Source of the DNA: Marivita sp. | GTDB lineage: Bacteria > Pseudomonadota > Alphaproteobacteria > Rhodobacterales > Rhodobacteraceae | Direction: 5' to 3' | DNA: 64,000 bases | Assembly: GCF_020055675.1 (NCBI RefSeq) | Contig: NZ_JAIPUS010000010.1 | Span: forward strand, 1-64,000 | Shown here: positions 1-10,625 of the stretch, piece after piece | How the letters are laid out: every line of letters begins with the position of its first letter | Position numbering within the stretch: the first letter of the stretch is position 1 | Position numbers and translations under genes: made by a program | Notes under the pieces: generated by a model | Told to the model about the DNA's origin: nothing | Databases searched by the model: none | Seen by the model: only the letters and a program-made list of their open reading frames with translations

Positions 1-385
1 CGATCGCAAAGCCCGACGCCCACCCGAGGCCTGGACCAACCTCGAAGCACCCATCGACTTGGCCGAGGCGCTGCACGCAACCGATGGCGACGTGCCCCGG
101 CTGGTGGATTGCCTGACCCTGTGGCTCACCAATCTGATGCTGGACGAGGCCGATTGGCGGGCCGAGACCGACACGCTGATCAAGACACTGGCCGAGCAAA
201 GCGCGCCGGTCGTGCTGGTGTCCAACGAAGTCGGTTTTGGTATCGTCCCCGAAAACAAGCTGGCCCGCGCGTTTCGCGATGCGGCAGGTCAGGTCAATCA
301 GGCCGTGGCCGCCGCCTGTGAAGAAGTCTGGCTTGCCGTGGCGGGTCACCCTGTGAAGGTAAAACCCAATGACACTCCTTTCTGA
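1..385 (+). CDS. cobU: Bifunctional adenosylcobinamide kinase / guanylyltransferase, C-terminal part
   Basis: Only the last 127 or so residues are in the window, with the frame open at the left edge. The enzyme phosphorylates adenosylcobinamide and transfers GMP to it, making adenosylcobinamide-GDP for the nucleotide loop of cobalamin. Seen: a stretch starting RRPPEAWTNLEAPIDLAEAL, then VDCLTLWLTNLM and VLVSNEVGFGIVPEN, which are typical of the CobU/CobP C-terminal half. The Walker A and the GMP-accepting His would lie outside the window. The end overlaps the start of cobT by 17 nt, and cobT is followed by cobS, so this is a compact cobalamin operon. The call is firm because all three partners are present in order. 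Confidence 0.93.
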   Translation, partial: DRKARRPPEAWTNLEAPIDLAEALHATDGDVPRLVDCLTLWLTNLMLDEADWRAETDTLIKTLAEQSAPVVLVSNEVGFGIVPENKLARAFRDAAGQVNQAVAAACEEVWLAVAGHPVKVKPNDTPF

Positions 386-1385
386 AATCCAGTCGTTGGC
401 GGCTGTCGAAACGCTTGCCGAAACCCTGCCTTCGCATGATACCGATTCGGTGCGTGCGGCCATCGACCGTCAGAACAGCCTGACCAAACCGCCGGGTTCC
501 CTTGGCCGGCTCGAAGGCCTGGCGGCTTTCATGGCCGGGTGGCAGGGCACGGCCCGCCCAACGATTGACCGTGCGCAAGCGGTTGTTTTTGCGGGGAACC
601 ACGGTGTTTGCGCACAGGGCGTGAACCCGTTCCCGCAAGACGTCACCGCACAGATGGTGGCGAATTTTGAAAATGGCGGGGCGGCCATCAACCAACTCTG
701 TCGAGCGACCGGCGCCGAGCTTTCGGTCGTTGCGCTGGACCTTGACCAGCCGACGGGTGACATCACCCAAGGGCCCGCCATGTCCGAGCAGGAAACGCTC
801 GTGGCGATGCGGCGCGGGGCCGCGGCCGTGGAGGCGCGGGCGAATGTGCTTGTCCTAGGCGAGATGGGTATCGGCAATTCGACAATCGCCGCGGCCTTGG
901 CCTTGGCGGGTTTCGGAGGTGGCGCCGAAGACTGGGTCGGCCGCGGCACCGGCTCTGACAAGGCCGGTCTCGCGCGGAAAACCGATGCGGTCGCCCGCGC
1001 TGTCGCGCGTCACGCGGACGCGACTGGCCTGGGTATGCTGGCCGCATTGGGTGGGCGCGAACAGGCCGCGATCTGCGGTGCCGTGCTTGGGGCGCGGGCG
1101 CTGCGCATTCCGGTGATCCTCGACGGGTTCATTTGCACTGCCGCGACGGTGCCTCTTTACAAGGTTGACCGGCGTTTTCTTGATCATTGCGTCGTGGGCC
1201 ATCTGAGCCGCGAACCCGGACATGCGCGGCTGATTTCCGCGTTGCAGCAAGAGCCGATACTCTCTCTCGATATGGCGCTGGGCGAAGGGTCCGGAGCGGC
1301 GCTTGCCCTGGGCGTGCTGCGTGCCGCGCTGGACTGTCACAATGGCATGGCAACATTCGGGGAAGCCGGCGTAGCGGACGCATGA
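369..1385 (+). CDS. cobT: Nicotinate-nucleotide--dimethylbenzimidazole phosphoribosyltransferase
   Basis: Makes alpha-ribazole phosphate, the activated lower ligand of cobalamin, from dimethylbenzimidazole and nicotinate mononucleotide. The protein is 338 residues, normal for the family. Seen: KPPGSLGRLE near residue 40, FAGNHGV near residue 75, the GEMGIGNST phosphate-binding stretch near residue 165, and NGMATFGEAGV at the C-terminus, where the family's catalytic Glu lies. The start lies inside the end of cobU, and the stop overlaps the cobS start (ATGA), so translation is probably coupled. No cobalamin riboswitch is visible; it would lie upstream of the window if present. Confidence 0.97.
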   Translation: MTLLSEIQSLAAVETLAETLPSHDTDSVRAAIDRQNSLTKPPGSLGRLEGLAAFMAGWQGTARPTIDRAQAVVFAGNHGVCAQGVNPFPQDVTAQMVANFENGGAAINQLCRATGAELSVVALDLDQPTGDITQGPAMSEQETLVAMRRGAAAVEARANVLVLGEMGIGNSTIAAALALAGFGGGAEDWVGRGTGSDKAGLARKTDAVARAVARHADATGLGMLAALGGREQAAICGAVLGARALRIPVILDGFICTAATVPLYKVDRRFLDHCVVGHLSREPGHARLISALQQEPILSLDMALGEGSGAALALGVLRAALDCHNGMATFGEAGVADA

Positions 1386-2316: not shown

Positions 2317-3789
2317 CTACCAGGCCCCCATCCGGTCAAGTTCGGGGCGCAGCGTGCCCTTGAAATCGAGCGCCTCGGCCCGGGGCCGGGTGACGAGGCT
2401 CACGCCGACAAAGAGCGCCACCGTCACACCGATCACGCTCAGCGCGAGCGTGGGGTCGAAAACGCTTACGCCGGCCCCCATCGCCATCCAGATCGCCGTT
2501 GCCGCGCCGCCCAGGAGCGAGGCCAGCACGCCCAAGGCGGTGCCGCGACGCCAGAAGAAGGCGCCGATCGTCGCGGGCACCGTCACGATCAGACCCGCCG
2601 CCGAAAGGGCTGCCAGTTGATCGACGATCGCCGCCTCGCGCACTGCGAACCCGGCGGCGAAAAGCACCACCAGAACAACCACCACGCGGCCGATGAAGAT
2701 CTGGCTTGCGTCGCGCCCGTCGCCCTGGCGCAGAAGGTCGCGCGCGACCATCGAGCCCAGCGTCAACGCGATGGAATCGAGCGTGGACACCGCGGCTGAC
2801 AGGATCCCGACGATCAGCAAGAGGCTGACCGCGACGGGCACCGCCCCCGAGCTCAGCAGCGCCGGCGTCGCGTTGGCCGGGTTATCGAGTCCGGGTGCGA
2901 TCACCAGCGCCGCGAAGCCCCAGATCACCGCGATTAGTGTGAACACCAGGCCAAAGCCCAGCACCCAGAGGATCATCCGCCGCATCGCGGCCATGTCCTC
3001 GACAACGAAGAGCCGTTGGCTGACCTGCGGGTTGGACAGCGGGAAGAAGAACCATGGCAGCGCCAGCGCGATGAAGGTCGGGAAAGACCAGAGCCCCGGA
3101 CCCGGCACGTCGAGCCACGGGCCGCTCTGCTCTGTCACCTCGGTCGTGAAGGCGTCGAGCCCGCCGATGTAGGAGATCGCGAAACCGACGGCCAAAACCC
3201 CTGAAACCAGCATCACCGCCGACTGGCCCGCGTCGGTCCAGGCGACCGCACGAAGACCGGCTGCCAGGGTCCAGAAGATGGCCAGTACCGCGCCGATGGC
3301 GATCGCCACCGGCAGGCTGATCTCGCCACCTGTCACGCCGGACAACAAAAGCCCGATCCCGGCCATTTGGGTCGTGCAGTAGGGCATCAGGAAGATCAGG
3401 CTCAGTACCGCCACAAGCCGCGCGATGTTGCGGTCGCCATAGCGCGCGCCCAGCATCTCGGCGGGGGTGATGAAGCCCCATTTCTGCGCTGCCAGCCAGA
3501 AGCGCGGACCGAAGACGACCAGAAGCGTGAGGCCGGAAAAATAGACCAGTTCGAACCCGAGCGCGCCGATCCCGCCACGATACGTCAGCCCGGTCAGCAC
3601 CACGAGCATGAACGCCGAATAGGTTGTCGCGGCGTAGGACAGCCCCGAAACCATTCCGCCAAGACGCCGACCGCCAAGATAGTAGTCGGACGCGGTCCCG
3701 GTATTGCCACGCGCCGCCGCGTAGACGATGGCTCCGCCGATCACCGCAAAGGCGATCACCGCGCCCCAGACGAGATAGGGGTCGATCAT
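2317..3789 (-). CDS. Sodium:solute symporter family (SSS) transporter
   Basis: A 490-residue polytopic membrane protein with about 13 hydrophobic segments. It has the SSS-type N-terminal signature SDYYLGGRRLGG near residue 34, followed by GLSYAATTYSAF, and a conserved SAAVSTLDSIALTLGSM stretch near residue 330 that matches the sodium-site region of the family. SSS proteins carry sugars, amino acids, carboxylates or betaines with sodium; the substrate here cannot be read from sequence. Its start is 3 nt after the stop of a 59-residue membrane protein, which in turn follows the egtD-like gene on the same strand. A role in moving histidine or a histidine betaine is therefore a reasonable inference, not a demonstrated one. 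Confidence 0.9.
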   Translation of the reverse strand: MIDPYLVWGAVIAFAVIGGAIVYAAARGNTGTASDYYLGGRRLGGMVSGLSYAATTYSAFMLVVLTGLTYRGGIGALGFELVYFSGLTLLVVFGPRFWLAAQKWGFITPAEMLGARYGDRNIARLVAVLSLIFLMPYCTTQMAGIGLLLSGVTGGEISLPVAIAIGAVLAIFWTLAAGLRAVAWTDAGQSAVMLVSGVLAVGFAISYIGGLDAFTTEVTEQSGPWLDVPGPGLWSFPTFIALALPWFFFPLSNPQVSQRLFVVEDMAAMRRMILWVLGFGLVFTLIAVIWGFAALVIAPGLDNPANATPALLSSGAVPVAVSLLLIVGILSAAVSTLDSIALTLGSMVARDLLRQGDGRDASQIFIGRVVVVLVVLFAAGFAVREAAIVDQLAALSAAGLIVTVPATIGAFFWRRGTALGVLASLLGGAATAIWMAMGAGVSVFDPTLALSVIGVTVALFVGVSLVTRPRAEALDFKGTLRPELDRMGAW

Positions 3790-3792
3790 GGC

Positions 3793-3972
3793 TCAGACCC
3801 TCCAGCGCGAGACGCCGCCAACGATCAGCACGACGATGGCCACGCCGAAGGCGGACCAGAACCAGAAGACGTCCAGGGCGGCTGCGCTGCCGCCAAGCAG
3901 CCCGTAAGGCACCGTGATGCCGGCGAGGATGACCGCGCCCACGAGCACCAGCCAGGTTGTGAATCCGTTCAT
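3793..3972 (-). CDS. Small two-helix membrane protein, probable symporter partner
   Basis: A 59-residue protein with two hydrophobic segments (about 5-25 and 34-53) separated by a short loop, ending in a basic tail (SRWRV). The frame is open further upstream to 4044, but the ATG at 3972 has GGA about 8 nt before it and begins the hydrophobic part, so it is preferred. Several sodium:solute symporters are encoded next to small membrane proteins (for example YhdT with PanF). Here the spacing to the symporter start is 3 nt, which suggests coupled translation and a shared complex. Family membership beyond this is not recognised. Confidence 0.72.
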   Translation of the reverse strand: MNGFTTWLVLVGAVILAGITVPYGLLGGSAAALDVFWFWSAFGVAIVVLIVGGVSRWRV

Positions 3973-4065
3973 CTGTTCCGATCCCGTTCGTTTCATGCTG
4001 CCACGCGGCACCCCGAAGTTTACAGGACCGGGGCAGGCTTTCAACTGGCCGCCGTGCCGATTGTG

Positions 4066-5022
4066 TCAGGTGCGGTGCAGGATCGCGACCGCGAAGAGCG
4101 CCTGCGGGTCCGTCAGAACCTCGGCCAGGTGCCAGCCCGCCGTCCGGGCCAGCTCCGACAGGCTCTCGACGGAGTATTTGTGGCTGTTCTCCGTATGGAT
4201 CGTTTCGCCCGCTGCGAATTCCACGACATGATCGCCGATCTGCACGCTTTGGTCTTCAAGGCTTTGCAGATGCATCTCCACCCGGGCCTCTGTCGCGTTC
4301 CAGATCGCCTTGTGCCGGAATGTCTCGAGGTCGAACTCGGCTCCGGCCTCGCGGTTGAGCCGCCTGAGAAGATTGAGATTGAAACGGGCCGTCACCCCGC
4401 TGGCATCGTCATAGGCCGCAACGAGTGTCTCGGGCGCCTTTACCAGATCGACGCCGAGGATCAGCGTGTCGTGATCCGGCCATTCACCCAGCCGCATCAA
4501 CAGCGCCCGCGCGGCATCAGGACTCAGGTTGCCGATGGTCGAGCCGGGAAAGAACCCGACAACCGGCTGCCCCCCGAGATCGGGCAGGGGGACGGGCTGC
4601 ATGAAGTCGGCGACCACCGGCCGGACATCGAGGCGGGGAAAGTCCGTGGCGAGCTCTGCTGCCGAGGCGTGCAGGAAATCCTCCGAGATATCGACGGGCA
4701 CATAGGTGGAAAGGCCTTTCAGCCCGTTCAGCAGCAAGCGCGTCTTGACGCTCGCGCCACTGCCGAGTTCCACAAGCGCGGCGCCTGCGGGCACATGCGC
4801 CTCTATCCGTGCCAGCCCGGTCTCCAGGATCGCGCGTTCGGTTCTCGACGGGTAGTATTCGGACAGCTGCGTGATCTCTTCGAAGATCGCGCTGCCGCGG
4901 TCGTCGTAAAACCATTTCGGCGAAAGCCCCTTGGGGCTGCGTGACATCCCCGCGATCACATCCGAGTAAAGGGCGCTGTTGCCGATTTCCGGTTTGCGAG
5001 GCTCCATCGTGCGTGCATCCAT
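4066..5022 (-). CDS. egtD: L-histidine N-alpha-trimethyltransferase (EgtD family)
   Basis: Predicted to transfer three methyl groups from SAM to the amino group of histidine, giving hercynine (histidine betaine). The 318-residue protein lines up almost residue for residue with mycobacterial EgtD. Tyr39, Phe47 and Tyr56 occur at the same numbers, followed by the SAM motif VELGSGAS near 84-91, Asn165 in GSTIGNLSP, Tyr204, and Glu278/Ser280 in IHTENSHKY. The last two correspond to the pair that reads the imidazole ring, so histidine is the expected substrate. Start 5022 is chosen for GGAG 5 nt upstream; the frame is open to 5046. No EgtB, EgtC or EgtE gene is nearby, which is odd for an ergothioneine pathway. 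The gene is divergent from an oxygenase and two methyltransferases. Confidence 0.9.
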   Translation of the reverse strand: MDARTMEPRKPEIGNSALYSDVIAGMSRSPKGLSPKWFYDDRGSAIFEEITQLSEYYPSRTERAILETGLARIEAHVPAGAALVELGSGASVKTRLLLNGLKGLSTYVPVDISEDFLHASAAELATDFPRLDVRPVVADFMQPVPLPDLGGQPVVGFFPGSTIGNLSPDAARALLMRLGEWPDHDTLILGVDLVKAPETLVAAYDDASGVTARFNLNLLRRLNREAGAEFDLETFRHKAIWNATEARVEMHLQSLEDQSVQIGDHVVEFAAGETIHTENSHKYSVESLSELARTAGWHLAEVLTDPQALFAVAILHRT

Positions 5023-5156
5023 GATATCTCCGATCGGTTGTGGCAACCCGACGTGACCTAACCCGCCGGATCGAAATATCCAGCCGATGCCGGTATCCGG
5101 CTTGCCGGTGCGGCGTGATGCTTTAGGTCCGTGCGCAGATGATGAAAGGACCCGAC
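5023..5156. promoter_or_regulatory. Divergent promoter region between egtD-like and oxygenase genes
   Basis: These 134 bp separate two outward-facing start codons and must hold the promoters of both units unless each is read from further away. The egtD ribosome site (CTCC on the plus strand, 5028-5031) and the oxygenase site AAAGGA (5145-5150) are clear. No convincing -35/-10 pair or operator palindrome was found by eye. The shared region suggests the two arms could be controlled together. Confidence 0.5.
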
Positions 5157-6143
5157 ATGGCCGAAACGACCACGCCCGAGAGCGATGCCACCGATGTGAG
5201 CCAACCCTGGGATCAGGACAACCAGGCCTGGTGGGACTGGTATGTCAGTCTTGCGGAGAACGATGGCGCCGACGAGGCGGTCCTCGCCGCTGCGCCCTTG
5301 CCGGATGTGGCGATCCCGACAGATGACGAGGTCATCGCGGAACTGGCGGCGCCCTACACCCTGACCGAAGACCAGATCGCGTTTTTCCGGGAAAACGGCT
5401 TCATCAAGCTCAAGAAGGTGTTTTCGCCGGGGACTGTTCTGAAGCTGCGGGCCGAGTTGATCCGGTTGTTGAAGGCTGAATTCGATGTCGACCCGGACAC
5501 CGGCGCGCGCGACCGGTTCCTGAGCCTCGAAATGGTCTGGCCGGATAATCCGCTGCTGCGGGCCTATGTTCTGTCGCCCCGTCTGGGGCAGATTTCGGCG
5601 GACCTGCTGGAGGTGCCGGCGGTGCGGCTGTACCATGACAACGTTCTCGCCAAACAGGCCGGGTGCGGGCGCACGCCGTGGCATTTCGACGATCATCACT
5701 TCCCGCTCGATACGCATGACGTCGTGACCGCCTGGGCCCCGGCCCAGCCGATCCCTGTGGAGATGGGACCGCTGGCCTTCGCCTACCCGCTGGACGTGCA
5801 CAAGCTGGTCGATGCGGTGACCTTCGAAAAGACGGGCACCGGCTATGATCGTGGCGTGGCCGAGGTGTTTGCCCGCAACGGCGTGACCGTGGACGAGACC
5901 CCGTTCGAGATGGGCGAGGTCAGCTTTCATCACAACCTGAATTTCCACACCGCCGCGCGCAATCGCACGGATCGCAGTCGGGTGGTTCTGGCCAACACCT
6001 ATTACGCTGACGGCGCGCGTATCGTGGATGCACCGACGATGGTGTCCGGCGACTGGCAGAAATTCATGCCGGGTGTCGGGCCGGGTGATATCGCGGCCAG
6101 TCCGCTCAACCCGGTCTGCTGGCCGGTCGGGGATGCCGAATGA
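5157..6143 (+). CDS. Phytanoyl-CoA dioxygenase (PhyH) family Fe(II)/2-oxoglutarate oxygenase
   Basis: A 328-residue non-heme iron oxygenase likely to hydroxylate a small molecule. Seen: about 65 acidic residues at the N-terminus, then the PhyH fold beginning YTLTEDQIAFFRENGF. The metal triad is His176-x-Asp178 (WHFDDHHFP) and His264 (NFHTAARN), with Arg275 (DRSR) as the likely 2-oxoglutarate anchor. WAPAQPIPVEMGPLAF is typical of bacterial PhyH proteins. ATG 5157 has AAAGGA 6 nt upstream; ATGs at 5139 and 5142 lack spacing for a site. The stop overlaps the next methyltransferase start. Linkage to an EgtD-like enzyme makes a histidine betaine a plausible substrate, but this is inference; the family also acts on lipids, ectoine and natural products. 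Confidence 0.88.
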   Translation: MAETTTPESDATDVSQPWDQDNQAWWDWYVSLAENDGADEAVLAAAPLPDVAIPTDDEVIAELAAPYTLTEDQIAFFRENGFIKLKKVFSPGTVLKLRAELIRLLKAEFDVDPDTGARDRFLSLEMVWPDNPLLRAYVLSPRLGQISADLLEVPAVRLYHDNVLAKQAGCGRTPWHFDDHHFPLDTHDVVTAWAPAQPIPVEMGPLAFAYPLDVHKLVDAVTFEKTGTGYDRGVAEVFARNGVTVDETPFEMGEVSFHHNLNFHTAARNRTDRSRVVLANTYYADGARIVDAPTMVSGDWQKFMPGVGPGDIAASPLNPVCWPVGDAE

Positions 6144-6982
6144 GCAGCGATATCCTGACGCGCAGCAGCACCCATTGGTCCGAGGCCGGCCGCGCCGGGA
6201 TGGATGCGTTTTACACACTTGCCACCGACGACTACAGGCATCTGGCCGAGGCGCGCGACTGGGCGACCTGGATGTCGGAGGCGCAGTCACGGGCGGGTGG
6301 CCGGTCCCTGCGGCTGCTCGACGTGGCCTGCGGATCGGGCAAGTTTCCCAACGCGCTCGTCCGGCATGCGGGCGTGGCTGAGGCTGGGCTGAACAAGATC
6401 GCAACCGACCTGTTGGACCCTTCGGCGTTTTCCATCGCCGAGGCGCGCGCGGCTCTGCCCGTGCCCTTCGCGGCAAGCGCGGAACATGAAACGACCCTGC
6501 AGGATTTCACTCCGCCGCCGGAGGGGTATGATATCGTCTGGGCGACCCATGCGCTTTACGCCGTGCCCGCCGCGGATCTGCCTGCCGCCGCCCGGCGCTT
6601 CTGCGATGCGATTGGCCCCGGGGGGCGCGGCGTGATTGCCCATAGTGCCGCCGCCGGGCATTACATCGAGTTTCACCGCCGCTATCTTGAGGCTTTCGCC
6701 GCAGCGGAGGTCGCCCCCTATATCTCGGCCGAGGATCTGGCGGCCGCGCTGCGTGACAGCGGTGCCGAGGTTTCGGTAACAGAGGTGCGCTACGAGAGCG
6801 TCGCAGGGCCGGACGATACGGCGGCTGTCGAGGGATACCTGCAACGCTGCGTCTTCGATGACAGTGTTTCGCTCGCGGAGATGCAGGCCCGCGACCCGGT
6901 GACAGAGTGGCTGACGGCGGCGCAGGCCAAGGACGGCTGGCGCTTTCCGCAGCTGGTGCACCTGATGGATATCACCGTCTGA
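6140..6982 (+). CDS. Class I SAM-dependent methyltransferase, substrate unknown (first of two)
   Basis: A 280-residue protein with a Rossmann-type SAM site, LLDVACGSGKFPNAL, near residues 57-71. It has a motif IV region YDIVWATHALYAVP near residue 130 and a GPGGRGVIAHS turn near residue 157. ATG overlaps the stop of the oxygenase gene (ATGA), so the two are probably translated together. It does not resemble its downstream neighbour beyond the fold, so the pair does not look like a recent duplication. No family that would fix the substrate was recognised. Given its neighbours, an N-, O- or carboxyl-methylation of a hydroxylated histidine derivative is a testable guess. Confidence 0.82.
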   Translation: MSSDILTRSSTHWSEAGRAGMDAFYTLATDDYRHLAEARDWATWMSEAQSRAGGRSLRLLDVACGSGKFPNALVRHAGVAEAGLNKIATDLLDPSAFSIAEARAALPVPFAASAEHETTLQDFTPPPEGYDIVWATHALYAVPAADLPAAARRFCDAIGPGGRGVIAHSAAAGHYIEFHRRYLEAFAAAEVAPYISAEDLAAALRDSGAEVSVTEVRYESVAGPDDTAAVEGYLQRCVFDDSVSLAEMQARDPVTEWLTAAQAKDGWRFPQLVHLMDITV

Positions 6983-7007
6983 CCCCCCGAAGAACTGGAG
7001 ATTGCGA

Positions 7008-7910
7008 GTGAATGATCACAGCCCCCTGAGGTCTGCCTGGACCGACAGTCTTGTCCGTGGCCAGCGCCCCGACGCGGCTGCCTTGCGCGCCCATCTGCGG
7101 GCCGTTCATCGTGACCATGCGGGGTTTACCGAAACCTGCGCGCGGGCCTGCTGCGATGCCGCCGGGCGCACCAGCTACGACTGGCTCGCCGAAGCGGTGC
7201 CGGAAACAGACGGAGCACGGGTGCTCGATCTCGCTTGCGGGTCCGGTCCGCTGCTGGACATCCTGCACCATCGCAATGCGGGGCTGCGCCTGACGGGTCT
7301 GGACATGTGCCCGGAAGAACTGGCTCTGGCGCAGGCGCGTTTGCCTGCGGGGTCGGCCGATTTGATGCAGGCCGAAGCGCAGGACATGGAGCGCATTTCG
7401 GACGGGTCGCTTGACGCGGTTCTGTGCCACTGGGCGTTGACGCTGATGGACCCTGTCACGCCGGTGCTTGACGAGGTGCGGCGCGTCCTGGCGCCGGGCG
7501 GGCGGTTCGTGGCGCTGGTGGATGGCCCGATGGAAGCCGCGCCGGGGTATACTGCGGTGCATGATCTCATTTACGGGTATGTGCAGTCTGAACTGCCCGG
7601 CTATGGCGAGATCGATCTGGGCGATCCCCGGATACGCGGAACTGACAGCCTGAGCGATCTGGTTCGCGCTGCCTTTCCCGCCGCGACAGTGACTGTCGAG
7701 ACCAGCGTGGTCACGATGGAGGGCGCCGCCACGGACGTGGCCGAGGCGGCGGCCGGTTTCTTCTATGCGGCGTTCATCCTGTCACCCGCATCGCGCGAGA
7801 AGATGCTGACAGAGCTTGCGGGTCTGCTCTCAACCTCCGGGCCGGGCGGGAGCGCCGTGCCACAAGGCAGCTTCGCAATGCCGATCAACCGGCTTCTGGT
7901 CACGACCTGA
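7008..7910 (+). CDS. Class I SAM-dependent methyltransferase, substrate unknown (second of two)
   Basis: A 300-residue methyltransferase with VLDLACGSGPLLDIL as SAM motif I near residue 72, TGLDMCPEELALAQ as motif II, and CHWALTLMDP then VLAPGGRFVALVDG as motifs IV and V. It is of the ubiE-like type. GTG at 7008 is chosen because GGAG ends 7 nt upstream; the in-frame TTG at 7002 would have only 1 nt of spacing. It starts 25 nt after the previous methyltransferase and ends the plus-strand arm of the divergent cluster. The substrate is unknown. Confidence 0.8.
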   Translation: MNDHSPLRSAWTDSLVRGQRPDAAALRAHLRAVHRDHAGFTETCARACCDAAGRTSYDWLAEAVPETDGARVLDLACGSGPLLDILHHRNAGLRLTGLDMCPEELALAQARLPAGSADLMQAEAQDMERISDGSLDAVLCHWALTLMDPVTPVLDEVRRVLAPGGRFVALVDGPMEAAPGYTAVHDLIYGYVQSELPGYGEIDLGDPRIRGTDSLSDLVRAAFPAATVTVETSVVTMEGAATDVAEAAAGFFYAAFILSPASREKMLTELAGLLSTSGPGGSAVPQGSFAMPINRLLVTT

Positions 7911-8017: not shown

Positions 8018-9010
8018 TCAAACCAACCCGGCAGTTTTGAACATCTGTTGCAGGTCCGCCTCGGGTCGCGGCCCGATATGAGAGATCACTTCGGCGGCGG
8101 CGACGCATCCCATGCGCCCGCAGGTTTCCGTATCGCGGCCCGTGGCCAATCCATAGAGGAAGCCGGCCGCGAATTGGTCGCCGGCCCCTGTCGCGTCCAC
8201 CGGGACCACTTTTTCGACCGGGATATTGACCCGTTCACCTTTGTGGATGATCGACACCCCATCGCCCGACCGGGTGCAGACCACCAGCGGGCAGATCGCG
8301 GCAACGGCGGCCAGATCGGCCTCAAGGTCGTTGTTCTGGTAAAGCGACATGATCTCGGCCTCGTTGCCGATGACATAATCCATCTCGTTTTCGATCAGGT
8401 CCAGGAAATCCGCGCGGTGCCGTTCGACGCAGAACGGGTCGGAAATCGCGATCCCCGCCTTGCCGCCCGCCGCGCGGCAGGTGCGGGCGGTGCGGATGAA
8501 GGCGTCTTTTCCCTTGTCCTTGTCGAAAAGGTAGCCTTCGAGGAACACGATCTCGGCCTGCGACGCCACGTCTTCTGACACGTCCTCGGGACCGAGTTCG
8601 GCCGAGATGCCAAGGTAGGTGTTCATCGACCGTTCGCCATCGGGCGAGACAAAGATCATCGACCGCGAGGTGGGTAGCTCGCCTCCGGCGATGGGTGCGT
8701 TGACGAAATCCGTGCCGCCGTTTTTCATCGCGTCCGCATAGAACCGGCCCAGCGCGTCGTCATGCACCCGTCCGATGAACCCTGTGCGCAGTCCCAGATT
8801 GCCCAGACCGGCCAGCGTGTTTGCGACCGATCCACCGGGGGTCTGCGTGCGTTCGGTCATCGCGGCATACAGCGTCTCGCCCCGGGCGCGTTCGACCAGT
8901 TGCATGATGCCTTTCTGAATGCCCATCTGGTCCAGAAACGCATCCTCGGCGCGTGCGATCACATCGACAACGGCGTTGCCGATGCCGACAACCTGGTATG
9001 TCTTGCTCAT
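8018..9010 (-). CDS. PfkB-family sugar/nucleoside kinase, adenosine kinase-like
   Basis: A 330-residue ribokinase-fold enzyme. Seen: GIGNAVVDVIA at the N-terminus, TPGGSVANTLAGLGNLG near residue 57 (substrate-side GG motif), and VDATGAGDQFAAGFLYGL near residue 275, holding the catalytic Asp and anion hole. Close relatives in Rhodobacterales are usually labelled adenosine kinase, which makes AMP from adenosine, but substrate choice in this family is hard to read from sequence. The ATG overlaps the stop of the endonuclease III gene by 4 nt, so the two are co-transcribed and coupled although their functions look unrelated. Confidence 0.88.
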   Translation of the reverse strand: MSKTYQVVGIGNAVVDVIARAEDAFLDQMGIQKGIMQLVERARGETLYAAMTERTQTPGGSVANTLAGLGNLGLRTGFIGRVHDDALGRFYADAMKNGGTDFVNAPIAGGELPTSRSMIFVSPDGERSMNTYLGISAELGPEDVSEDVASQAEIVFLEGYLFDKDKGKDAFIRTARTCRAAGGKAGIAISDPFCVERHRADFLDLIENEMDYVIGNEAEIMSLYQNNDLEADLAAVAAICPLVVCTRSGDGVSIIHKGERVNIPVEKVVPVDATGAGDQFAAGFLYGLATGRDTETCGRMGCVAAAEVISHIGPRPEADLQQMFKTAGLV

Positions 9011-9773: not shown

Positions 9774-10625
9774 ATGACCCTGACCCATCTCGCAGACGAC
9801 AGCCAAGGCTACCATTTCCACGTCATGCGGCGCGCGCTCGATGTGATAGACACCAAAGGTCCGAACGTGTCGCTTGATGAACTGGCGTCCGAGATGAACA
9901 TGAGTCCTGCGCATTTTCAGCGCGTGTTCTCGCGCTGGGTGGGCGTCAGCCCGAAACGGTACCAGCAATACCTGACACTGAGCCACGCCAAGGCGCTGTT
10001 GTCGGATCGTTTCACGACGCTGGGTGCGGCACATGCCACTGGTTTGTCGGGGGGCGGACGATTGCATGACCTGTTCCTGCGATGGGAGGCGATGAGCCCC
10101 GGAGATTTCGCCCGAAAGGGCGCGCATCTGACCGTGTACTGGGGCTGGTTCGAAAGCCCGTTCGGCCCCGCCCTTGTCATGGGGACCGGGAAGGGTCTCT
10201 GCGGGATCGGCTTTGCCTCCGAATGCACCGAGGACGAGGCGATGCGGGATCTTACCAGCCGCTGGCCCAACGCCCTCTATGTCGAGGCGCCGGACCGGCT
10301 CGAACCCTGGGTGCGGTCCGCTTTTGGCCAAGCAAAGAGCGATGTGCCGCTTTTCATGATCGGCGCCCCGTTCCAGATCAAGGTCTGGGAAGCCTTGATG
10401 CGGATCCCGTCCGGGCATGTCACCACCTACTCGGAAATCGCCGAATTCATCGGCCATCCGAAGGCGGTCCGCGCGGTGGGGACGGCGGTGGGGCGCAACC
10501 CGATCAGCTTTCTGATTCCGTGCCACCGTGCCCTGCGAAAATCCGGCGGGCTGGGCGGCTATCACTGGGGCCTGCCGGTCAAACGTTCCATCCTCGCCTG
10601 GGAATCCGCCCGCGCCGACGCATGA
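9774..10625 (+). CDS. Ada-like protein: AraC-type HTH plus O6-methylguanine-DNA methyltransferase
   Basis: A 283-residue fusion. Residues about 15-110 form an AraC-type DNA-binding region (LDELASEMNMSPAHFQRVFSRWVGVSPKRYQQYL). Residues 115-280 are the alkyltransferase, with PCHR (the methyl-accepting Cys in FLIPCHRALRKSGGLGGY) and GTAVGRNP. It removes methyl groups from O6-methylguanine and may activate repair genes. Unlike E. coli Ada it lacks the N-terminal zinc domain that senses methylphosphotriesters, so how it would be switched on as a regulator is unclear. It is divergent from nth. Its stop codon lies inside a 25 bp tandem duplication. Confidence 0.9.
   Translation: MTLTHLADDSQGYHFHVMRRALDVIDTKGPNVSLDELASEMNMSPAHFQRVFSRWVGVSPKRYQQYLTLSHAKALLSDRFTTLGAAHATGLSGGGRLHDLFLRWEAMSPGDFARKGAHLTVYWGWFESPFGPALVMGTGKGLCGIGFASECTEDEAMRDLTSRWPNALYVEAPDRLEPWVRSAFGQAKSDVPLFMIGAPFQIKVWEALMRIPSGHVTTYSEIAEFIGHPKAVRAVGTAVGRNPISFLIPCHRALRKSGGLGGYHWGLPVKRSILAWESARADA

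Follow-up and report, generated by a model that had tools for sequence, protein, structure and literature searches.

A proposed hercynine-derived betaine pathway with a PhyH-type oxygenase and methyltransferases at the usual place of EgtB

Introduction

Hercynine has been described mainly as the intermediate that precedes ergothioneine. In Marivita sp. (assembly GCF_020055675.1, contig NZ_JAIPUS010000010.1, positions 1 to 64,000; this stretch of 64,000 nucleotides is referred to as the window), a gene for EgtD, the L-histidine N-alpha-methyltransferase, was identified next to an operon coding for an oxygenase of the PhyH family and for two class I S-adenosylmethionine (SAM)-dependent methyltransferases, designated MT1 and MT2. 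The reading that we favour, with some reserve, is a branch from hercynine which bypasses ergothioneine: the product of EgtD would be oxidised by PhyH and methylated by MT2, and outside SAR11 also by MT1, to give a polar histidine betaine. That such a branch is separate from ergothioneine synthesis is well supported, because EgtD lies near PhyH in most related loci, and because in the order of SAR11 every genome with PhyH contains EgtD and most of them contain no EgtB over the cut-off.

Gene neighbourhoods of PhyH

Relatives of PhyH were collected by scanning GTDB contigs with two PhyH proteins, those of the window and of Actibacterium (G063), and the best 80 of 140 were analysed, counting as neighbours genes within 4.5 kb of PhyH. 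The PhyH proteins of these 80 are 74-83% identical, and their hosts are mostly Pelagibacteraceae (SAR11) single-cell genomes. The remaining hosts are four Rhodobacterales, a Thioalkalivibrio bin, a Burkholderiales bacterium and two uncultured proteobacteria; several hosts presumably come from soda or hypersaline lakes. PhyH in L102 and the methyltransferases in L066, L102 and L108 were identified by tblastn (loci are given L numbers and genomes G numbers).

MT2 was found near PhyH in all 80 loci, EgtD in 52, EgtB in 20 and MT1 in 5. The commonest order in SAR11 is PhyH-MT2-EgtD, and a 4-bp overlap of MT2 with EgtD is present in 43 of the 46 measurable loci, with gaps and overlaps in the relatives computed from the earliest start codon available. 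An EgtB gene precedes PhyH at a distance of 110-113 bp in 19 loci. The order is EgtD-PhyH-MT2-EgtB in the Burkholderiales locus (L105) and EgtD-PhyH-MT2 in L036 and L040, while L066 repeats the divergent arrangement of the window including MT1 and holds the sole full four-gene set among the 80 relatives. At least ten distinct flanks were counted for the EgtD-bearing block, which therefore stays together while its surroundings change. The association of PhyH, MT2 and EgtD exceeds chance, since both SAR11 and other proteobacteria show it. The preliminary description of this DNA, made from the sequence of the window, had treated all four genes as companions; this was found for EgtD, PhyH and MT2, but not for MT1.

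As a separate observation, a small cupin (L048:12798-13178 and 13 alike) lies convergently after EgtD in SAR11 loci of the order EgtB-PhyH-MT2-EgtD. It gives a weak match to DMSP_lyase, under the cut-off, and we take it to resemble DddK.

Co-occurrence with EgtD and EgtB

Co-occurrence was determined in 247 genomes of the order to which the SAR11 genome G231, itself a PhyH genome, belongs. PhyH was counted at E <= 1e-50, and EgtD and EgtB over their model cut-offs, which excluded one EgtD row of 17.7 bits (G258). PhyH was present in 14 genomes, EgtD in 33 and EgtB in 22. All 14 PhyH genomes contain EgtD, compared to 19 of the 233 others (Fisher p = 3.3e-14, uncorrected for kinship). EgtB was found in 4 of the 14, and none over the cut-off in the other 10. 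Among the EgtD genomes without PhyH, 18 of 19 contain EgtB; the exception, G337, has an EgtD of the ProXW type described below. For the separation of PhyH from EgtB within the 33 EgtD genomes, the Fisher p is 1e-4, also uncorrected for kinship. With EgtB in 18, PhyH in 10 and both in 4, a candidate consumer of hercynine is therefore held by 32 of the 33 EgtD genomes. PhyH tracks EgtD in these genomes, not EgtB.

The Marivita genome, which is 99.93% complete, contains a single EgtD and no EgtB over the cut-off of 360 bits, the best being a partial match of 25.3 bits. For 50 of the 80 relatives, the search for EgtD and EgtB was extended to the whole genome: these were the 28 without EgtD near PhyH and 22 of the 32 in which EgtD, without EgtB, lies near it. 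In 21 of these 22, no EgtB over the cut-off was found; the EgtB count of the 50 is biased low, and the sample of 247 is the fairer one. For EgtD and PhyH, the co-occurrence without egtB that had been raised at the outset was seen in the Marivita genome and in the 10 SAR11-order genomes, but not in the 20 of 80 loci which carry EgtB inside the block. A branch from hercynine through PhyH and MT2, often in the place of EgtB, is well supported.

EgtD and its histidine pocket

EgtD of the window scores 376.9 bits with TIGR03438, exceeding the equivalog cut-off of 290.9, and 354.4 bits with PF10017. Aligned with EgtD from Mycobacterium smegmatis, it is identical at all 14 compared positions of the pocket. 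Tyr39, Phe47, Tyr56, Asn166, Tyr206, Glu282 and Ser284 of the M. smegmatis enzyme align with Tyr39, Phe47, Tyr56, Asn165, Tyr204, Glu278 and Ser280 of the window protein, counted from ATG 5022, so that the seven residues which had been named as reading histidine were all confirmed. In a passage of PMC8593015, these seven M. smegmatis residues are described as lining the histidine site. From family and pocket, EgtD of the window probably forms hercynine by adding three methyl groups to the alpha-amine of histidine.

The M. smegmatis pocket is matched at each of the 14 positions by 54 of 62 aligned rows, a count in which the window, the reference and EgtB-linked rows are included. In four of the 62, encoded near ProXW genes (L142, L143, L144 and L147), Gly replaces Met252, Tyr replaces Phe142 and Ser replaces Thr163. 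Three of these four come from PhyH-bearing SAR11 genomes, and the fourth, that of G337, from a genome without PhyH. Their genes lie on the same strand as those of a glycine-betaine-type ProX and of ProW, immediately following ProW in L142 and L144 and separated from the ProXW genes by two open reading frames (ORFs) in L143 and five in L147. This lineage may act on a modified or larger substrate. The altered pockets would suit a reversed order, in which PhyH and MT2 modify histidine first and EgtD trimethylates last; we consider such an order improbable, since the pocket in 54 of the 62 rows, that of the window included, is that of the M. smegmatis histidine enzyme.

Repeated pairing of EgtD with PhyH

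A tree of EgtD was calculated from 41 rows; the program gave a long-branch warning, and support is low at the deepest forks. The PhyH-linked EgtDs do not form one clade: three changes are needed on the tree with one PhyH label, at least two of them forced by supported branches, and four when PhyH with EgtB is given a separate label. EgtDs of the window and of L066 are sisters (support 99/99) within the Rhodobacteraceae EgtDs, and EgtB lies alongside in 9 of the 11 Rhodobacteraceae loci around them (L021-L031). Compared to the window protein, the EgtDs of SAR11 and of L105, L036 and L040 are mostly 36-41% identical, with 43-45% for two contig-end fragments. The 36-41% identity of EgtD against the 74-83% of PhyH is compatible with a single PhyH-MT2 pair that was joined by more than one kind of EgtD. 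More than one EgtD lineage has paired with PhyH, in at least two separate pairings.

The oxygenase PhyH

PhyH matches PF05721 with 55.1 bits (cut-off 22). His176, Asp178, His264 and Arg275, counted from ATG 5157, are invariant in all eight aligned family members, by which the intact metal triad (His176, Asp178, His264) proposed earlier is upheld. From knowledge of the family, we take the HxD...H residues to be the iron triad and Arg275 to be the 2-oxoglutarate arginine. An N-terminal signature, W-x2-DNQ-x-WW-x-WY, is likewise invariant in the eight members. The nearest solved structures, by fold and sequence, are SnoK, SnoN, the H11 proline hydroxylase and MysH, with 22-23% identity to SnoK as the nearest one; EctD is matched by the PhyH profile at 9e-5. 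The structure model of PhyH has a mean predicted local distance difference test score (pLDDT) of 70.6, with residues 1-33 and four further segments below 50. By fold and triad, PhyH is an Fe/2-oxoglutarate oxygenase.

The methyltransferases MT1 and MT2

MT1 matches PF13489 with 46.9 bits (cut-off 27) and MT2 matches PF08241 with 65.8 bits (cut-off 21.2). These best matches are different class I models, in agreement with the initial view of two unrelated class I methyltransferases. With a profile of ten MT1 members, weak matches in the PDB were obtained to NTMT1 (8e-5), which we take to be an alpha-N-methyltransferase, and to histamine N-methyltransferase (0.003); this likeness would fit a role of MT1 as an N-methyltransferase. 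The AlphaFold2 model of MT2 (mean pLDDT 88.3) shows a class I fold of the ordinary kind, which dozens of structures match almost equally well, so no acceptor can be read from it.

MT1 was identified only in sets outside SAR11, with SAR11 searched for MT1 at PhyH loci only. As to mobile elements, MT1 was not found by tblastn in the plasmids of PLSDB, and in a scan of the phages of IMG/VR none of 16 pattern matches was a PhyH relative.

Distribution in the family

In 198 genomes of the family, the Marivita genome included, strong matches to both MT1 and PhyH were found only in that genome and in Actibacterium G063; a weak MT1 match was present in three more and distant PhyH relatives in 104 more. 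EgtD was identified in 12 of the 198. In a sample of 385 genomes of the class, PhyH is present in 6, again with Marivita sp. included. Because PhyH was found in a single one of the 17 genomes examined from the genus, the Marivita genome probably acquired the cassette.

Observations weighing against the hercynine branch

A number of observations speak against a branch in which EgtD supplies PhyH and both methyltransferases. MT1 is not in proximity to PhyH in 75 of the 80 loci. EgtB lies inside the PhyH block in 20 of 80, so that the substrate at those loci could be a later compound of ergothioneine synthesis. The cassette is sparse in the genus, where the Marivita genome alone among the 17 carries PhyH. 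Actibacterium (G063, L110) keeps PhyH-MT1-MT2, but its EgtD adjoins EgtB on another contig. Of the 28 relatives without EgtD near PhyH, 23 contain it elsewhere in the genome, and in 5 none was found; four of these five are SAR11 single cells for which no completeness is stated. The fifth, Rhodosalinus sediminis (L108, G222), contains PhyH-MT1-MT2 and no match to EgtD or EgtB in 3.2 Mb. Five distant PhyH loci (L162-L166, 48-62% identical), which come from the sample of 385 genomes of the class, encode MT1 in all five and MT2 in three, and EgtD and EgtB were not found in the 5.7-18 kb analysed at each. Finally, MT1 and MT2 resemble many methyltransferases, and their acceptors are not readable from their sequences.

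The distant loci also contain transporters, of the major facilitator superfamily (MFS) in three and of the sodium:solute symporter (SSS) family in two. L163, L164 and L165 carry PhyH-MT1-MT2 cassettes with a common MFS transporter, which is far under the NCBIfam cut-offs; the SSS symporters lie beside the cassettes in L164 and L165, that of L165 being nearest to PutP, under the cut-off. PhyH-MT1-MT2 may be the older set. Where sets lack a neighbouring EgtD, hercynine may be imported or otherwise made, or the substrate may be different. EgtD is near PhyH in 51 of the 75 loci without MT1 nearby, and elsewhere in 20 of the other 24 genomes, a hint that MT1 and EgtD might replace each other. Against such an interchange, EgtD is also present in 4 of the 5 MT1 genomes among the 80 relatives, and in that of the window.

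It could also be that PhyH, MT1 and MT2 make another compound, for example a betaine of another amino acid built by MT1, and that EgtD joined them in many genomes through a common stress response. The EgtD-free loci and Rhodosalinus point in this direction, as does the weak likeness of MT1 to NTMT1. We nevertheless regard this explanation as unlikely, given the 4-bp overlaps of MT2 and EgtD, the pairing of EgtD lineages with PhyH on two or more separate occasions, and the presence of EgtD in 14 of 14 PhyH genomes when no more than 33 of the 247 contain it.

An action of PhyH and MT2 on ergothioneine, or on its precursor sulfoxide, would explain why EgtB immediately precedes PhyH in 19 loci and follows MT2 in L105. 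It is very improbable, however, since EgtB over the cut-off is absent from the Marivita genome, from 10 of the 14 SAR11-order PhyH genomes and from 21 of the 22 tested relatives. Ergothioneine as the general end of the pathway was rejected on the absence in the Marivita genome and in these 10 of 14.

Last, the neighbourhood in the window might be accidental, a remnant of an EgtB-EgtD operon which has lost EgtB and lies beside an unrelated operon. The separate EgtD in Actibacterium and the single occurrence of PhyH in the genus would be in line with this, but the same divergent arrangement in L066, with an EgtD that is sister to that of the window, makes it scarcely credible.

The preliminary description had proposed a histidine-betaine pathway whose product, hydroxylated and methylated once or twice more, is unlike ergothioneine or ovothiol. 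What remains of it is the branch through EgtD, PhyH and MT2, with hydroxylation and the one or two methylations as predicted steps; the rare proximity of MT1, the EgtD-free sets and the 20 loci with EgtB do not agree with the proposal as first drawn.

Proposed pathway and role of the product

For the branch from hercynine, the following steps are predicted. EgtD would trimethylate the alpha-amine of histidine to hercynine, as expected from its family and pocket. PhyH would then use O2 and 2-oxoglutarate to oxidise hercynine, with hydroxylation as the likeliest reaction, and MT2 would transfer a methyl group onto the new oxygen or onto the imidazole of the oxidised betaine. In the sets outside SAR11, MT1 might add one further methyl group, perhaps on nitrogen. 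Gene content, overlap of genes, co-occurrence and the repeated pairing in the EgtD tree are seen directly; the reactions after hercynine, their order and the role of the product are deduced from them. The pathway would yield a strongly polar histidine betaine that acts as compatible solute or stress metabolite and may be transported by the neighbouring symporter.

The names of the hosts, which point to marine or saline habitats, the neighbouring transporters of betaine or proline type and the general role of betaines suggest a compatible solute. In a passage of PMC3826126, betaines are viewed as compatible solutes, and hercynine is recorded in nine of ten cyanobacteria. It is put forward as a tentative generalisation that an undescribed histidine betaine, oxidised and methylated, is made via EgtD-PhyH-MT2 in many SAR11 and here and there in other proteobacteria of marine or halophilic habit, and that this route has replaced ergothioneine in several lineages. 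In the sets outside SAR11, MT1 would be an extra or even an alternative N-methyltransferase, so that EgtD and MT1 could be interchangeable entries to related betaines.

If the pathway exists, a nitrogen-rich solute so far undescribed would be present in bacteria (SAR11) that rank among the most abundant in surface seawater, which would bear on the cycling of osmolytes and nitrogen. The small enzyme set and a product readable by liquid chromatography-mass spectrometry make this a directly testable question, for which Rhodosalinus sediminis (L108) is a natural test case with respect to the source of the substrate.

Organisation of the locus in the window

The four ORFs at 4066-7910 are present as they had been placed, the 134-bp distance from EgtD to the operon is exact, and the ATGA overlap of the PhyH stop and the MT1 start lies at 6140-6143 (Table 1). 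Beyond the 3' end of EgtD, a symporter gene follows, for which the best NCBIfam models are sss, PanF and PutP, every one under its cut-off. Judged by position, it is a possible transporter of the substrate or product of the pathway; the 83-amino-acid protein encoded between it and EgtD might, judged by position alone, act as its small partner. The proximity of cobT was taken as probably due to chance, because among 99 fetched loci no other was found near the cassette beyond L165 (L165:15767-16714). An adenosine kinase gene was not found near the cassette in the 99 fetched loci.

Table 1. Positions of the pathway genes and neighbouring features in the window.
Feature	Position	Strand	Remarks
EgtD, L-histidine N-alpha-methyltransferase	4066..5022	-	ATG 5022 taken as start; ORF open to TTG 5046
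EgtD/PhyH intergenic gap	5023..5156	.	134 bp; both promoters presumed there from position
PhyH-family Fe(II)/2-oxoglutarate oxygenase	5157..6143	+	PF05721; start ATG 5157
MT1, class I SAM methyltransferase	6140..6982	+	PF13489; ATGA overlap with PhyH
MT2, class I SAM methyltransferase	7002..7910	+	PF08241
83-amino-acid protein, 3' of EgtD	3793..4044	-	No Pfam family over cut-off
Sodium:solute symporter (SSS family)	2317..3789	-	PF00474, 116.2 bits; direction of EgtD
cobT	369-1385		
Adenosine kinase	8018-9010		
AraC-type helix-turn-helix fused to O6-methylguanine DNA methyltransferase domain (Ada-like)	9774-10625		

Comparison with known systems

In open full text, no literature joining EgtD, phytanoyl-CoA dioxygenase, methyltransferase and hercynine was found, nor any joining ergothioneine with SAR11 or hercynine with Pelagibacter. 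The match for hercynine, dioxygenase and 2-oxoglutarate concerns, in the text matched, another enzyme type. A published description of a hercynine-derived betaine pathway with PhyH and methyltransferases, or an isolation of its product, was not found among the matches listed, which cover open full text, with subscription papers and preprints outside. What would be new is best called a hercynine-derived betaine pathway with an oxygenase and methyltransferases at the usual place of EgtB.

With ergothioneine synthesis by EgtB and EgtD, the proposed pathway has the first enzyme and the presumed intermediate in common, and EgtD of the window belongs to a mainly EgtB-linked group of Rhodobacteraceae. 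In contrast, the Marivita genome lacks an EgtB over the cut-off and contains PhyH and the methyltransferases in its place. Other tailoring of hercynine or histidine is known from the selenoneine (SenA) and ovothiol (OvoA) pathways, which proceed via EgtB-like synthases. EgtB proteins match the SenA and OvoA models too, and the Marivita genome was searched with the EgtB model only (the 25-bit partial match).

Among oxygenases, SnoK, SnoN, MysH, EctD and the H11 proline hydroxylase are relatives of the window PhyH in fold and sequence; from SnoK it differs by the low identity and by the conserved N-terminal aromatic signature of its family. In hydroxyectoine synthesis, EctD, an enzyme of the PhyH type, hydroxylates a finished compatible solute after EctABC. 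There, the solute is a different one, and the set in the window adds methyltransferases.

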